A stretch of 64,000 bases of DNA from Candidatus Gastranaerophilales bacterium (GTDB lineage Bacteria > Cyanobacteriota > Vampirovibrionia > Gastranaerophilales > Gastranaerophilaceae), in the NCBI GenBank assembly GCA_944324315.1, contig CALUVW010000009.1:1-64000 (forward strand). The letters are read 5' to 3'. Of the stretch, positions 3,611-51,159 are shown piece by piece (positions within the stretch are counted from its first letter, which is position 1; every line of letters begins with the position of its first letter). Under the pieces are notes generated by a model that saw nothing but the letters and a program-made list of their open reading frames with translations, made no database searches and had not been told where the DNA came from. A program made the position numbers and the translations under genes.

Positions 3611-4668
3611 ATGAAAAACATGTTAAGAAATGTTACAATCGGGGGGGGGGCGATTCCGAGCTTTTAGAAAATAATTTATCTAAGAGGTCAAGAAGTCAAG
3701 CAAGTTTAAAAAATGTCATCCCGAACTTGTTTCGGGATATCATAATTAGATACAAAGATGCAAAGAGGCATAGATGCGAAGCTAGTATTGCAAAATTTTT
3801 CCCTCTCTCAGGGAGAGGGAGGGAAATTGGTCGGGTGCACCCCTCATCCGGTACTTCGTACCACCTTCTCCCACACAGGGGAGAAGGAAGAAATGCCGTT
3901 TCACCCTTCACTCTTCACCTTTCACTTAAACAACGGACCGCTTTTACTCTTGCAGAAGTTCTCATAACCCTCGGCATAATCGGTGTAGTTGCTGCAATGA
4001 CAATGCCGGTACTTATTACTAAGCATCAGAAAGAAGTTACGGTGAATAAATTAAAAAAGGCAGTATCAACTTTTGAACAGGCTTTGACACGTGCACAAGC
4101 TGATTACGGTGATATGTCGGGGTGGACTTTTTTGCAGGCGGGTACCGATTTGTCATCTGATTCTGATTCTGCAAATGCAGAGCGTGAAACATTTATAAAA
4201 AATTATATAATGCAGTATCTGAATATTGCTAAAGATTGCGGAGCACGTAATGTGAATAATTGTCCCAACTATATAGCTACATCGCTTGATAAAACATCAT
4301 TTGTTTTGGATATGTCAAATGATAGAAAGTTTATAACTTCTGATGGTACTTTATATAATGTATCAGTTGATCTTAACATGGTGGAGAATGATGATGGAGT
4401 CAAAGTTCCTGTTACCAATGGACATTTGATTGTTACTGTTGATATAAACGGTTTCAGCGGTCCTAATATTTACGGTCGTGATTTATTTGTGATGGATGTC
4501 GCTCCAAATACCAAAAAAGTTACAATGTTTGGTGCGGGACGAAATAGAGAAGTTTTGAAAAACGATACAAACTGGGCATGTAACAGCAGAACCTCAAGAC
4601 GTTATTACTGTGGTGCAATTATTCAACAAGATGGCTGGCAAATAAAAGACGATTATCTCTGGAGATAA
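3611..4668 (+). CDS. Phase-variable prepilin-like protein, locus 1 (frame broken at G10 tract)
   Basis: Start codon ATG 3611 follows AAAGGAG at 3597-3603 and a TAAAAT -10-like box at 3574-3579. Ten codons later come ten G (3641-3650), and the frame ends at TAG 3665-3667. The pilin frame is open from the tract to 4668 and is reached by one extra G. The joined product would have a leader of about 111 residues, cleavage at Ala|Phe before FTLAEVLITLGIIG, and a mature pilin of about 241 residues. The mature part carries VDINGFSGPN, a Cys pair and a terminal DGWQIKDDY. The leader holds octamer, palindromic and heptamer repeats. A TTG at 3727 lies in the pilin frame but has no convincing ribosome site. 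Confidence 0.85.
3641..3650 (+). repeat. Poly-G tract (G10), switch of prepilin locus 1
   Basis: Ten consecutive G, 30 nt after the start codon. With ten G the frame reads five more codons (ending ...IPSF) and stops. With nine it also stops within eight codons. With eleven or eight it enters the pilin gene. Homopolymers of this length are classic slipped-strand contingency tracts. It also contains the heptamer G GGG GGG, a possible -1 slippery site. Confidence 0.9.
3684..3738 (+). repeat. Octamer repeat (2 units) plus palindrome in leader of locus 1
   Basis: Two octamers (gaggtcaa, gaagtcaa) occupy 3684-3699. A hairpin follows at 3718-3738, with arms atcccgaa and ttcgggat. Related blocks occur in the leaders of loci 2, 3, 5 and 6. 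All lie inside the predicted coding frame. Confidence 0.8.
3900..3927 (+). repeat. Heptamer tandem repeat (4 units) in leader of locus 1
   Basis: Four consecutive 7-mers: ttcaccc, ttcactc, ttcacct, ttcactt. The same repeat occurs at 33606-33633 and 38324-38351, and in reverse orientation at 6102-6129. It resembles the heptameric STRR repeats known from cyanobacteria. Confidence 0.8.
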
Positions 4669-19217: not shown

Positions 19218-19261
19218 ATAGTGTGCTATAATAAATATGTTGCAAAAAGAGGAGTGAATGT

Positions 19262-20217
19262 ATGAAAAATATATTAAGCAATGTTACCCTCGGGGGGGGG
19301 GCGATTCGGGGCTAACCGGAAGTCCAGAGGTCAGGAAGTCAGGAGGTCAAGCAATTAAAGTTATGCTGAACTTGTTTCAGCATCTCGCTATAAGATGCAA
19401 AGTCTGTAACGTAAAAAAATATTTTCCTCACCTGGGAGAGGGATTAAGTGAGAGTGTAATACACAATATCTTCCTTCCCTTATTATGGAAGGATAAGAGG
19501 ATTGGTAATGATTTCAGACGTAAAGCCGCCTTTACTCTTGCTGAGGTATTAATTACGTTGGGTATCATAGGTGTTATTGTAGCAATAACGATGCCTTTAT
19601 TGACAGCTAATTATAAAAAGAAAGAGTTGCCGGTAAGACTGCAAAAATTTTATACTACATTTAATAATGCTCTGCTTATGTCGCAGGTTTATAATGGAGA
19701 TATATCAACTTGGGAATATTCAATTCAGTCTGTTGGAACTCCGGAATCTGATAATGCTAATTATCAATTTTTTAATACTTATCTATTTCCTTATATGAAA
19801 GGGATTAAGGAATGCAAACCATACGATAAAGATTGTGAGATAAAATTAGATCCTAATATTTTTGAAAACCCGAATTATACTGCAAACACATATTCAATGT
19901 ATATTTTGACTGATGGTTCTTGTTTTGGAATTTTGACTGGTGGTACTGGTGAAGGCACCGCAAATATTCACGGGTGGTTTGATTATAACTGTCAAGGCAA
20001 GCCAAATCTTGCGGGACATGATCAATTCATTTTTTTTATGCTTTTAGGTTCTCAAGAACGTTATATCCCTTTGCAATTTTGGAGTAAAGGGCAAAAATTA
20101 TCAGGTAAAAAAAGAATAGATATTATTAATCAATGTAAGACAAGAGCTTCTGATTGCGGGGCTTTAATTCAGTATGACGGATGGCAGGTTGCTGATGATT
20201 ATCCTGTAAAAATTTAG
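19262..20217 (+). CDS. Phase-variable prepilin-like protein, locus 2 (G10; alternative ATG 4 nt upstream)
   Basis: The start homologous to the other loci is ATG 19262, 7 nt after AGAGGAG (19248-19254). Ten codons later comes G10 (19292-19301), and that frame ends at TAA. A second ATG at 19258 is in the pilin frame at G10, but it lies only 3 nt from the ribosome site. With G11 the leader from 19262 would be 90 residues and the mature pilin about 228, beginning FTLAEVLITLGIIGVIVA after Ala-Ala. The C-terminus has a Cys pair and CGALIQYDGWQVADDYP. The middle keeps GKPNLAGHDQF. The leader holds three octamers and a variant palindrome. Confidence 0.83.
19292..19301 (+). repeat. Poly-G tract (G10), switch of prepilin locus 2
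   Basis: Ten G, 30 nt after ATG 19262 and flanked by CTC and CGATTC as in other loci. From ATG 19262 the frame stops five codons after entering the tract region (AIRG then TAA). From ATG 19258 the pilin frame is read. Confidence 0.9.
19327..19383 (+). repeat. Octamer repeat (3 units) plus palindrome in leader of locus 2
   Basis: Octamers gaggtcag, gaagtcag and gaggtcaa (19327-19350) are followed by a hairpin with arms atgctgaa and ttcagcat (19363-19383). Both arms differ from locus 1 in a compensating way. Confidence 0.78.
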
Positions 20218-27959: not shown

Positions 27960-28876
27960 ATGAGAAGATTTAGAATTAAAGAGCCGCAAACCCAATGCTG
28001 TAATTTTGCAGCTATGTCTGAAAGCCTCGGGGGGGGGGCAATTCAGGGCTAAATAGAGGTCAGGAAGTCCGGAGGTCAAGAAGTCAAGCAAGTTTAAACA
28101 CCGTCATCCCGAACTTGTTTCGGGATCTAGTAATTAGATGCGAAGATGCAAAGAGGCATAGATGTGAAGTCTGTAACGTAAACACCTTCGTTCCATTATT
28201 AGGGAAGGATAAGAGGATGGGTAACAATTTCGGACGTAAAGCCGCCTTTACTCTTGCTGAGGTATTAATTACCCTTGGCATAATCGGTGTGGTTGCAGCT
28301 TTAACAATGCCTTCATTAATTGCGCATTACCGTAAACAAGAAATAGAAACCCGTTTAAAACATTTTTATTCAATAATAAATCAGGCTGTTATGTTATCAG
28401 AAGTTCATAATGGAGAAGCTGAATATTGGGATTATACAGATGCCCCATACGGTCAAGATGCTTCTGCTTGGGTTAACAAATATTTAGCTCCATATATGAA
28501 AGTTATAGATATCTATGATCCTAAGGATGAAGATTCTAAACCATGTAACTGGGCGCCGATTTTTGTATTGGAAAATGGTATAAGTTTTTCTGTCGTTGGG
28601 GATAGTAAAGTCACAATGTGCGTCTGGTTGACGGGAAAAACACAAAAAGAAGGAGTAAATGTTTTTAGGTTTATGTTCCATCCTACACGATATGCATCGA
28701 AGGTTATGCCTGATAGTTATCTGGAGTGGGTTGAAGATGCTCCAGTGGGTTTTATGCCTATAAATGGTGACAGAGATAATTTAATGAAAGTTTGTAAAAG
28801 GTTCCCTTATCGTTGTGCTGCCTTAATAATGCATGACGGCTGGAAAATACTTGATGATTATCCCTATAAAATATAA
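27960..28876 (+). CDS. Phase-variable prepilin-like protein, locus 3 (frame broken at G10 tract)
   Basis: ATG 27960 follows AAAGGAG at 9 nt. After 23 codons ending MSESL comes G10 (28029-28038), and the frame ends AIQG-TAA. The pilin frame is open from the tract to 28876, offset by one extra G. Joined, it has a 96-residue leader, Ala|Phe cleavage before FTLAEVLITLGIIGVVAA, and a mature part of about 209 residues, the shortest of the set. The C-terminus keeps CKRFPYRCAALIMHDGWKI and DDYP. DVNG-GPN is not recognisable here. The leader carries four octamers, a palindrome and the CNVNTF segment shared with locus 6. Confidence 0.85.
28029..28038 (+). repeat. Poly-G tract (G10), switch of prepilin locus 3
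   Basis: Ten G, 69 nt after the start codon and 15 nt after an internal in-frame ATG. Context GCCTC before and CAATTCAGG after. Stops follow in both non-pilin frames. Confidence 0.9.
28056..28126 (+). repeat. Octamer repeat (4 units) plus palindrome in leader of locus 3
   Basis: Octamers gaggtcag, gaagtccg, gaggtcaa and gaagtcaa (28056-28087) are followed by a hairpin with arms atcccgaa/ttcgggat (28106-28126). Inside the predicted frame. Confidence 0.78.
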
Positions 28877-30782: not shown

Positions 30783-31618
30783 ATGAAAACATATTTTAAA
30801 TCAGCATCTCGGGGGGGGGGCATTTAGGAGCTTCTTCCAAAGATTTCGGCGATTTATGCAAGAGATTTATGCCGGGAAAAGCGGCACTTTTAGGATTTAC
30901 ACTTGCAGAAGTTTTGATAACACTTGGAATTATAGGAATTGTTGCCGCAATCACTATGCCGGCACTTATTAATTCTTATCAAAAAATGGTCTTAAGGCAG
31001 CAGTTTAAAAAAGCGTATAATACTATGTTAAATGGTTATCGTTTAGCAGAGGTAAAGTTAGGTTTTCATCCGATGTGTTATTATGGGGATGATTGGGTTG
31101 GAAGTCCTTGTATAGAATATAATGATGAAGGAGATTGTGTGAAATATGGAGAGGCTGTTAATCCAACAAATCAAGAGTCTGACTGTCCGGTATTCAGAGA
31201 AGAATTAATGAAAGTTTTGTCAGTTGTAAAAGTTTGTAAAGGAAATGGATTAGCAGATGGATGTATTCCTCCATATAAAGGAAATGATACGTTATATAAA
31301 GAAAATAATGAAAATGCCTCTGAAGTAGATACTAATATGGCTACGGCAGGTCTGTCAGGCTGGAGAGAGCAGAATATCCATAATAAATCACATATCTGGG
31401 TTTTGGCTGATGGCATGATTATAGTATGGTACAGTAATTCAACAAGGTTGTTTGCTGTAGATGTTAACGGGATGAAAGGTCCAAATAAATGGGGATATGA
31501 TTTGTTTGGTTTTATGTTGAAGTCAAATTTGGCTAAAGCATTATGGCTTGAAGGAAGCGGGTACACTGAAAAAGGCGGAAAGGCTACAAAACAAATGATG
31601 GAAAGTATGGGGTTGTAA
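30783..31618 (+). CDS. Phase-variable prepilin-like protein, locus 4 (G10; short leader)
   Basis: ATG 30783 follows AAAGGAGG. Nine codons plus a C lead into G10 (30811-30820), and the frame ends with ATT TAG. The pilin frame is open and offset by one extra G. Joined, it has a 38-residue leader without repeats and is the only one with the canonical Gly|Phe cleavage site (LLGFTLAEV). The mature part of about 240 residues has DVNGMKGPNKWGYDLF but lacks the C-terminal Cys pair and GW motif, ending KQMMESMGL. An in-frame ATG at 30869 would give a normal 9-residue leader, so internal initiation is a rival model for this locus. Confidence 0.83.
30811..30820 (+). repeat. Poly-G tract (G10), switch of prepilin locus 4
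   Basis: Ten G, 28 nt after the A of the start codon. Flanked by TCTC and CATTTAG; the last three bases of that flank are the stop in the current frame. Confidence 0.9.
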
Positions 31619-33193: not shown

Positions 33194-34326
33194 ATGAAAA
33201 GATTAAGATTGGATGAGCAGCAATTACAACCTTGTTTAGAAATTACTATGTCTGAAAGCCTCGGGGGGGGGGCGATTCAGGGCTAAGTAGCGGTCAAGAA
33301 GTCCGGAGGTCAAGAAGTCAAGCAATTAAAGTCATCCTGAATTTATTTCAGGATCTGTTCTTCCTTCCCTTATTAGGGAAGGATAAGAGGATGGGTAATA
33401 ATTTCAAAGAAACTAAGTTGATACCCACCCCTGCCCCCTCCCTAATAAGGGAGGGTACTACGCATGTAGACGTGTTAGACAATTCATGTCAGTATTTGTC
33501 ATGTAATCTTAAGAGTACTACGCAGTCTCATAATTATAATTTTAATTCAAGACGGACTTATCGTCCTAACGTCTTATCTTCTTATCGACTAAAAAATAAA
33601 CTCTCTTCACTCTTCACGTTTCACCCTTCACTAAAACCGAAAGCTGCGTTTGCTCTTGCAGAGGTTCTAATTACACTTGGCATCATTGGCGTAGTTGCCG
33701 CTTTAACAATGCCGGTACTTATCGCAAATCATCGAAAAACAGAAGCTGTAACCAGGCTCAAAAAAGTTTATACAACAATAAATCAGGCAGTTTACATGTC
33801 AATTGCAAATGATACATGGACTGAACCGCCTCTAAATGACAGGTACAATCAAGACGCGTTAAACGAATGGATGAATAAGGCATTATACCCTTATCTTAAT
33901 GATGTAAAAAAATTTGGTCCCGGAGAATTTGAGCATCCAAGTGGCGGCGGCAGTACAGCTTATGGTTTAATGTTTTCTGACGGTACAATAATGTGGTTTA
34001 GTAATAATTATAGAATCCATGTATATGTTGATACAAACGGATTAAGAGGTCCCAATAAGGGCGGAGTTGATTGTTTTCGCTTTTTCCTTGATTATGAAAA
34101 TGAGCGCAAACTTGGTTATTTTTATCCTTCAGGATATACTTATTCAAATGATAACGTTGAGGATGCCGATAAGAAAGACCAATATGTTTACGGTAATCGT
34201 GACGGAATTCTGAAATATTGCAAATCCGAATATGTCAGTGGAAATTTCGCATTCGAAAATACATGCGGACTTTTGATAATGTATGAAGGCTGGCAGATAC
34301 CTGAAGATTATCCGGTAAATTTTTAA
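33194..34326 (+). CDS. Phase-variable prepilin-like protein, locus 5 (G10; longest leader)
   Basis: ATG 33194 follows AAAGGAG. After 23 codons ending MSESL comes G10 (33263-33272), then AIQG-TAA. The pilin frame is open from the tract through about 380 nt of repeat-rich leader. Joined, the leader is 152 residues, the longest here, and cleavage would be at Ala|Phe before FALAEVLITLGIIG (Ala in place of Thr). The mature part is about 225 residues with DTNGLRGPNKGGVDCF, a Cys pair and LLIMYEGWQIPEDYP. Four octamers, a covarying palindrome and four heptamers are present. An in-frame ATG at 33391 has no clear ribosome site. Confidence 0.84.
33263..33272 (+). repeat. Poly-G tract (G10), switch of prepilin locus 5
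   Basis: Ten G, 69 nt after the start. The flanks are almost identical to locus 3 (GCCTC before, CGATTCAGG after), so the 5' modules of loci 3 and 5 are recently related. Confidence 0.9.
33290..33354 (+). repeat. Octamer repeat (4 units) plus palindrome in leader of locus 5
   Basis: Octamers gcggtcaa, gaagtccg, gaggtcaa and gaagtcaa (33290-33321) are followed by a hairpin with arms atcctgaa/ttcaggat (33334-33354), again with compensating arm changes. Confidence 0.78.
33606..33633 (+). repeat. Heptamer tandem repeat (4 units) in leader of locus 5
   Basis: Units ttcactc, ttcacgt, ttcaccc and ttcacta, just before the pilin hydrophobic segment, in the same relative place as in loci 1 and 6. Confidence 0.78.
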
Positions 34327-38046: not shown

Positions 38047-39134
38047 ATGAAGAGATTTATTATGCCTGAAACCCTCGGGGGGGGGGCGATTCCGAGCTTT
38101 TAGAAAATAATTTATCTAAGAGGTCAAGAAGTCAAGCAAGTTTACCAAAAGTCATCCCGAACTTGTTTCGGGATCTCATAATTAGATGCAAAGAAGCAAA
38201 GAGGCATAGATGCGAAGTCTGTAACGTAAACACCTTCCTTCCCTTATTAGGGAAGGATAGGAGGATGGGTATTAATCAATACCCACCCCACCCCTCTCCC
38301 ATAGGAGAAGGAAGAAATGCCGTTTCCTCCTTCACTCTTCACCTTTCACTTAAACAACGGGTAGCATTTACTTTGGCAGAGGTATTAATCACTCTTGGAG
38401 TCATAGGTGTAGTAGCTGCTTTGACAATGCCTTCATTAATTGCTAATTACCAGAAGAAAGTATTGGTTACACAGATAAAGAAAACATACGCAACCTTGAA
38501 TGAGGGATTTCGCCAAATTATGACCAGTCAAGGCTGTACAGATATGACTTGTGCAGGTTTTCTTGATTATTTAACTACTAAAAAAAACAATTTGAATGTT
38601 CAACAAATTATATCAGCTTACTCTGGTAATTTCGCAGTCGTAAGTAGTACATTCAAAATGGTAAACACTTCAACTACTTTTAATCAAAACAGTCCTTTAT
38701 ATGATTATGATATTTCTGCAGTAGGCTTTGAAGATGAGATTATGCCTTTCGCAACTCTCTTAAATGAGTTGATATATGCCGGATATGACAATCTAACATT
38801 GTCGGGAGCCCTTCCTGGTGGCAGTATATTATTTTATCAACTTGGCGGGTTTATGCTTATAGATGTGAATGGCAAGAAGAAACCAAATATATTAGGACGC
38901 GACATTTTTTCATTACGCGTACTCTCGGATGGTCGTGTAATACCTAATTCAGATTTCAATTTTTGGTATTTCTATAATGTTTATGCAAAATCAATTCCAG
39001 AGAATGAATTCGGAGTTATAAATGAAGAGAAGCGACTTTCAAATTTAAAAGATTGGTGTTTTTCAAATACTGATGATTTAAAAGGCGCCTGTTTAGAATT
39101 AATTATCCATGACGGCTGGGAGATGAATTATTAA
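38047..39134 (+). CDS. Phase-variable prepilin-like protein, locus 6 (frame broken at G10 tract)
   Basis: ATG 38047 follows AAAGGAA. After ten codons (MKRFIMPETL) comes G10 (38077-38086), then AIPSF-TAG. The pilin frame is open and offset by one extra G. Joined, it has a 107-residue leader, cleavage at Ala|Phe before FTLAEVLITLGVIG, and a mature part of about 255 residues with DVNGKKKPNILGRDIF, a Cys pair and ELIIHDGWEM. The 50 residues after the pilin helix are nearly the same as in locus 7. The post-tract sequence is nearly identical to locus 1. Two extra ATGs (38040, 38043) lie upstream in the pilin frame but stop at TGA after nine or eight codons. Confidence 0.85.
38077..38086 (+). repeat. 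Poly-G tract (G10), switch of prepilin locus 6
   Basis: Ten G, 30 nt after the start. The following bases match locus 1 for more than 50 nt. Confidence 0.9.
38120..38174 (+). repeat. Octamer repeat (2 units) plus palindrome in leader of locus 6
   Basis: Octamers gaggtcaa and gaagtcaa (38120-38135), then a hairpin with arms atcccgaa/ttcgggat (38154-38174). Same arrangement as locus 1. Confidence 0.78.
38324..38351 (+). repeat. Heptamer tandem repeat (4 units) in leader of locus 6
   Basis: Units ttcctcc, ttcactc, ttcacct and ttcactt, shortly before the pilin hydrophobic segment. Confidence 0.75.
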
Positions 39135-50200: not shown

Positions 50201-50335
50201 AAACTTCCTTTCACACTAATATTCTATGTAAAAATTTATTAAAAATCCATTACATGTTAATAAATGTTATATATTGATTGCATTCAGTCAGAAAATAGTT
50301 TATAATCGATTGTATAGTCAGAAAGGAGTAAAGTT

Positions 50336-51159
50336 ATGAAAAGTATTACGAGATTATCGGGGGGGGGGCACATCTAGGCTCAAACTCCTTATTTTCAAAA
50401 TTTTGTGCTACGCACGTAGCCTACTCTCAAAATATTCGTCGGGCAGCATTTACTTTGGCAGAAGTTCTCATCACGCTTGGAGTCATTGGTGTCGTTGCCG
50501 CTTTAACAATGCCGAGTTTGATGGCACATTACCAGAAGAAGGTTCTAGTTACACAGATAAAGAAGGCATATTCAACCTTAAATGAAGGTTTCAGGCAGAT
50601 AATGGCACAGGAAGGCTGTACGGATTTAATTTGTGCAGGATTTATGGATTCTTCATATCATATGATATTGAATGAATCCAATATAAACAAACTTGTCAGT
50701 ACATTCAAATTATCAGATTTTTCAAATACTTCAAATATATTTAATTATGATATAAAAAGTTTAAATGGTAATGTTATTACAGCAGATCTTCTTGATGATT
50801 TAAATACTGTCGGCGCATATTCAGGGAAAACTCCAGATGGAATGTTTGTAAGTTTTGTTAGTGATAATTCTGTTAACCAGTTGATCCTATTTGACGTCAA
50901 TGGTAAAAAAGGACCTAATGTTGCAGGAAGGGATATTTTCTATATTACTGTTACAAACAATATAATCACACCTTATTTCAGCCTTCCATACTTGAAGTTT
51001 GTTGGATTAGATTTAGATGGTGATTTGATAAATCAAGAATCAATTACAAAAATTGTCAAAGATGGATGCTCTCAAACAGGTTCTGGTAGGGATCCATCAC
51101 AGCCATTAATATATTGTTTAGAACGTATCATTATAGACGGATGGGAGATGAAGTATTAG
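50336..51159 (+). CDS. Phase-variable prepilin-like protein, locus 7 (no alternative start)
   Basis: ATG 50336 follows AAAGGAG. Seven codons and TC lead into G10 (50359-50368), then CAC ATC TAG. The pilin frame is open and offset by one extra G. Joined, it has a 38-residue repeat-free leader, cleavage at Ala|Phe before FTLAEVLITLGVIG, and about 236 mature residues with DVNGKKGPNVAGRDIF, a Cys pair and RIIIDGWEM. Between the tract and the pilin Phe this frame has no ATG, GTG or TTG, so the hydrophobic segment can only be made through the tract. The closest relative is locus 6. Confidence 0.88.
50359..50368 (+). repeat. Poly-G tract (G10), switch of prepilin locus 7
   Basis: Ten G, 23 nt after the A of the start codon. 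The stop in the current frame comes two codons later (CAC ATC TAG). Confidence 0.9.

Follow-up and report, generated by a model that had tools for sequence, protein, structure and literature searches.

Putative phase variation at a G10 tract ahead of a type IV pilin-like gene in a gut Gastranaerophilales bacterium

Start codon, tract and reading frame at locus 7

The window (the whole stretch of 64,000 nucleotides that was analyzed) contains seven tracts of ten G residues, the last of which (locus 7) lies on the forward strand between a start codon and a type IV pilin-like gene. The ribosome site and start codon of this locus occupy positions 50321–50338, with the strong ribosome site AAAGGAG ahead of the ATG at 50336–50338. 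The G10 tract (50359–50368) is flanked by TC and CA, and is followed by a leader (50369–50448) and by the pilin-like gene itself (50449–51159, FTLAEVLITLGVIGVV...). The product of this gene scored 17.8 bits against the TIGR02532 profile, above the cut-off of 16.3, and carries the N-terminal cleavage/methylation motif together with a hydrophobic stretch (FTLAEVLITLGVIGVVAAL in the sequence). No match was found when the locus 7 pilin was used as the query against the proteins of named genomes.

At the assembled tract length of 10, the pilin-like gene is out of frame with its own ATG: the ATG frame reads MKSITRLSGGGHI and stops after 13 codons, three codons past the tract. With one additional G, the ATG frame runs into the pilin and reads MKSITRLSGGGAHLGSNSLFSKFCATHVAYSQNIRRAAFTLAEV, and the peptide crossing the tract would be GGGAHLGSNSLFSK. 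The two frames are thus joined at 11 G only, and not at 10.

The pilin frame of the leader is open, and we confirmed that it contains no ATG, GTG or TTG among the codons from position 50371 to the Phe at 50449, as the sequence-only reading of this locus had claimed. Its further claim that the first candidate is a TTG within the pilin motif also holds, since the first canonical start after the tract is the TTG at 50455, which encodes the Leu of FTLAEV; automatic gene calling would therefore lose the true leader of locus 7. The sole non-canonical start codon in the leader is an ATT at 50434, which has no Shine–Dalgarno sequence (ACGTAGCCTACTCTCAAAAT upstream), and a search for a conserved non-canonical start past the tract, which would have spoken for another route to the pilin, found none. 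The missing start is unremarkable and weak evidence when taken alone, because canonical starts occur 125 times in the 4645 pilin-frame codons of 70 loci (0.027 per codon), and at this density the probability of finding no start in 26 codons is 0.49. Nevertheless, we see no credible way in which locus 7 could yield a pilin except from the ATG at 50336 and an 11-base reading of the tract.

The pilin loci of the genome and their relatives

The family was analyzed using the DNA stretches around the tracts. Matches to G8 numbered 21 in the window (seven G10 tracts), compared with 0.25 expected from shuffled sequences, and the genome contains 93 exact C-G10-C sites, seven of which are inside the window. 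About 70 tracts of the genome precede type IV pilin-like genes. The other six tracts of the window, all on the forward strand, lie at 3641–3650 (locus 1, L028; pilin in frame at 11), 19292–19301 (locus 2, L029), 28029–28038 (locus 3, L030), 30811–30820 (locus 4), 33263–33272 (locus 5) and 38077–38086 (locus 6). The pilin genes of loci 3, 4 and 6 likewise need 11 bases; locus 5 precedes an open reading frame of 311 amino acids with weak matches to the pilin profile, and its longest upstream and downstream frames join at 11.

We defined as testable those pilin loci with a 10-base tract and an ATG accompanied by a ribosome site (n = 64; G10 or C10 on the coding strand), and found that the pilin was in frame at 11 and not at 10 in 63 of them. 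The 16 testable loci with C10 on the coding strand showed an offset identical to that of the G10 loci. The single exception was locus 2, which has two overlapping ATGs (ATGTATGAAA) ahead of its tract; from the one at 19258 the pilin is in frame at a tract length of 10, and from the one at 19262 at a length of 11. One further member, L084, has T followed by G9 and shows the offset of the 10-base pilins.

Between the tract and the Phe, 69 of 70 loci have no stop in the pilin frame (one stop in 4645 codons overall), and the other two frames of the 69 open loci contain 375 and 408 stops. In some sister genes the tract lies 7–11 codons ahead of the Phe, so that there is hardly space for an internal ribosome site; in L012, L060 and L072, for example, the gap is 7–10 codons long and contains no start codon. 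The open frame and these short, startless gaps therefore suggest that these genes are built to be translated from the upstream ATG. The dN/dS values of the paralogous 10-base pilins (0.13–0.51) indicate purifying selection, and thus pilins that have been functional over time. Many leaders contain palindromic repeats (e.g. TCATCCCGAACTTGTTTCGGGATCT) between the tract and the pilin, as at 38087–38366 in the window, and the pilin frame remains open across them. The only clearly ON tract pilin that we saw in the genome (G000) is L081 (contig C1, 57351), whose pilin N-terminus is in frame at G11 and is joined to long repeats that look like the head repeats of YadA-type proteins (TAIGYNTL...).

Tract length differs among the loci of the genus, being 9, 10, 11, or 12 or more. 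Across 33 species of this Gastranaerophilales genus, the pattern TC-Gn-C occurred 53 times with n = 9, 1162 times with n = 10 and 79 times with n = 11, and a further 14 times with n ≥ 12, nine of these in species G002. The in-frame length of the pilins was 2 mod 3, i.e. 11, at 17/19 G9 loci, 174/178 G10 loci and 20/25 classified G11 loci; in other words, a pilin needs two more bases at a tract of 9 and one more at a tract of 10, and most of those at 11 are already in frame. In species G002 (loci L259, L264, L266 and L275) the tracts have lengths of 11–13, and the pilins sampled there show the opposite offset, since one base fewer would bring them into frame.

In species or genera with few tracts or none, most of the sampled pilins have an ordinary ATG 4–9 codons before the Phe with a normal ribosome site (e.g. 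MKKG/FTLAEV and MKDFRA/FTLAEV), and some leaders are longer. Two relatives within the genus, G021 and G029, have more than 100 pilin matches each and nearly no G10 tracts, and several of the pilins sampled there have a normal start just ahead of the motif. The tract motif was absent from the first 25 genomes outside the genus. A distribution confined to the genus was nonetheless dropped, because a wider set of genomes showed a low number of copies of the motif in further genera of this family. In a pilin of another genus (G034), the tract is G11 and in frame, reading MEETKKLTGGGATSSQ...KIKA/FTLAEV.

Length, strand and surroundings of the tracts

The length distribution has an isolated peak. 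In 400 kb of genome G025, G/C runs of at least 6 numbered 10 (length 6), 0 (length 7), 0 (length 8), 1 (length 9), 12 (length 10) and 1 (length 11). Overall, about 90% of tracts are exactly 10 long. By comparison, the share of the mode in a stationary distribution computed from the rates of C. jejuni (rates from PMC8224891) is 43%. The peak at 10 is thus tighter than these rates would lead one to expect, which is odd for a hypermutable tract.

The orientation of the tracts is equally regular. Of 59 pairs of tracts that are neighbours on a contig of genome G000, 58 have both tracts on one strand (P about 1e-16), and the pilin genes point either way with respect to their tracts (along contig C4, for example, the order is C,G,G,G,C,C). 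Almost all tracts of G025 are on the strand with positive GC skew. Taken together, the shared strand, the two gene directions and the skew suggest that orientation follows replication and not the gene. On the G strand, the tracts are preceded by TC and followed by C and a purine, often with AGC ~10 bases further on, and these flanks are alike in both gene orientations. The search patterns bias part of the apparent extent of this flank motif; support free of this bias comes from a C on both sides in 7/7 runs of the window and in 13/14 runs in 400 kb of one relative.

Tracts also occur outside pilins. Seven non-pilin genes, glycosyltransferase-like and others (L003, L021, L025, L049, L070, L075 and L079), are in frame at exactly 10. 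Therefore, 10 is the default length whatever the gene needs, and it is a real length. The default state of these seven genes would be ON. Another G10, L071 (contig C30 of G000, G strand), lies inside the non-coding leader RNA of ribosomal protein L10 (RF00557). Four genomes have G10 at this site and one has G11; in sister species the place is taken by interrupted G-rich sequence such as GGGGTGGGG. The idea that G10 is an inserted mobile unit was considered and rejected; in the L10 leader, where the sisters have G-rich sequence, no insertion is needed.

The length peak, the strand lock, the flanks and the L10 leader favour a cause of tract length that acts on DNA and is linked to replication, and that is possibly dedicated. 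More speculatively, the lineage could possess a dedicated DNA element, TC-G10-CR, that is strand-polar. A process coupled to replication and specific for this sequence would then hold the run at exactly 10 everywhere (at pilins pointing either way, at glycosyltransferase-like genes and in the L10 leader) and release it to 11 at a set frequency, which would produce the mostly OFF bank of about 70 pilins. We regard this proposal as tentative and rather doubtful.

Explanations for the tract and known systems

Phase variation at the level of DNA, with most loci OFF, fits these observations best (probability about 0.7). On this view, this gut Gastranaerophilales bacterium would possess a bank of about 70 type IV pilin-like genes that are phase-variable, and locus 7 would belong to it. 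Translation would begin at the ATG ahead of the tract. A tract of 11, or of any other length that is 2 mod 3, would turn a gene ON; at 10, the length usually found and also that of locus 7, the gene would be OFF. Replication slippage may alter the tract by one base, and presumably just a few of the many pilins would be ON in each cell. The support for phase variation consists of the shared ON length, DNA lengths that vary between loci and between species, a single tract orientation relative to replication, intact frames and purifying selection on the pilins, from which the slippage and the few-ON state are extrapolated. As is characteristic of contingency loci, tract length sets the reading frame of an otherwise intact predicted surface gene, and length differs between similar genes and genomes. 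Against a switch stand the narrow length peak and the fact that all testable pilins but one in this assembly are OFF.

The sequence-only reading had argued that locus 7 has to make its pilin by read-through of the tract. This was too strong: G10 is plainly out of frame, and the product needs the upstream ATG together with an 11-base tract. Because most G11 homologues are in frame in the DNA, the G10 allele is likelier to be an OFF state than proof of slippage during expression, and the assembled allele of locus 7 is probably, and most simply, the OFF state of a phase-variable gene. Programmed transcriptional slippage, in which RNA polymerase would lengthen some transcripts by one base at G10 or C10 and so set a low level of pilin at a fixed DNA length, is unlikely, although nearly all pilins need exactly one more base at 10, tract length is near constant and bacterial IS elements use homopolymer slippage (PMC1088944). 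Slippage of this kind would have to add two bases in the G9 members, has nothing to correct in most G11 members and would damage the seven non-pilin genes that are in frame at 10. In addition, it should track the transcribed strand, whereas the tract tracks the replication strand. An ON length fixed at 11, with a DNA length that varies and is mostly OFF, is a signature of phase variation and not what programmed +1 slippage would need. Ribosomal frameshifting by minus one on the G or C run, which would join both frames, is far less probable: a slip back by one base yields the needed frame in all G10 and C10 loci, but it must act equally on G and C runs, and it leaves the G9 and G11 length variants in the DNA unexplained.

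Internal initiation, by which the pilin would be made from a start past the tract and the tract would be irrelevant, is just as improbable as frameshifting, and the claim that locus 7 removes it proved partly right. At locus 7 the sole credible start is indeed the ATG before the tract; for the family the claim goes too far, since an in-frame start accompanied by a loose Shine–Dalgarno match follows the tract in 30 of 69 loci, and L031 and L066 retain an ATG five codons ahead of the Phe. However, 16 of 69 loci, including locus 7, lack a canonical start in this region, and in nearly every locus the frame remains free of stops all the way back to the tract. An artefact of assembly or sequencing, whereby true tracts of 11 are reported as 10, is only slightly less improbable. 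Illumina sequencing struggles with long G runs (PMC9187656), and several contigs end close to tracts. Nevertheless, 79 G11 tracts were reported as such, with most classified 11-base pilin loci in frame; the G10 motif is found in metagenome-assembled genomes (named Candidatus Gastranaerophilales or Melainabacteria) whose contig names suggest different assemblers (NODE, k127/k141 and idba), and in older scaffolds of Fusobacterium sp. CAG:439; and the T+G9 of L084 leaves the offset unchanged. The plain form of this explanation, 11 read as 10, was rejected because of the seven genes in frame at exactly 10.

If phase variation is right, a little-studied gut lineage has a very large bank of phase-variable genes, and automatic gene calling would take such genes as broken or mis-started. 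With so narrow a peak at 10 and tracts locked to the replication strand, it would also become testable what sets homopolymer length in bacteria. A literature search on Gastranaerophilales and phase variation gave no paper, and the literature searched described no bank of about 70 genes that share one ON length and are locked in both default length and strand.

Several known systems resemble these loci in part. In the antigenic variation of Neisseria pilE driven by a G-quadruplex, pilin copies are likewise numerous and a G-rich element lies close to a pilin gene. Here, in contrast, the G-rich element consists of one run of 10 G and not a four-run G-quadruplex, every testable locus comes with a ribosome site and an ATG of its own, unlike the promoterless silent cassettes of Neisseria, and the loci examined lacked the hallmarks of pilin variation driven in this manner. 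Transcriptional slippage in IS elements (PMC1088944) similarly joins out-of-frame gene parts by a base change at a homopolymer; the present runs are of G/C and not A/T, and their length in the DNA varies while the ON length stays fixed. In Bifidobacterium breve, replication slippage of G tracts has been measured to switch sortase pili: an intragenic G10–G12 tract leaves a pilus gene OFF in the reference, one-base slippage turns it ON, and G10 makes up about 93% in culture (PMC9187656). That switch was measured in two sortase-pilus clusters, whereas the present one would involve about 70 type IV pilin-like genes and is deduced from their sequences. The poly-G contingency loci of Campylobacter and Neisseria also have a G/C homopolymer near the start of surface genes, the length of which determines frame and hence expression. 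Compared with these, the loci described here comprise about 70 genes of one family with one ON length (11) and one default (10), and show a far narrower length peak, a G strand that follows the direction of replication and conserved flanks.
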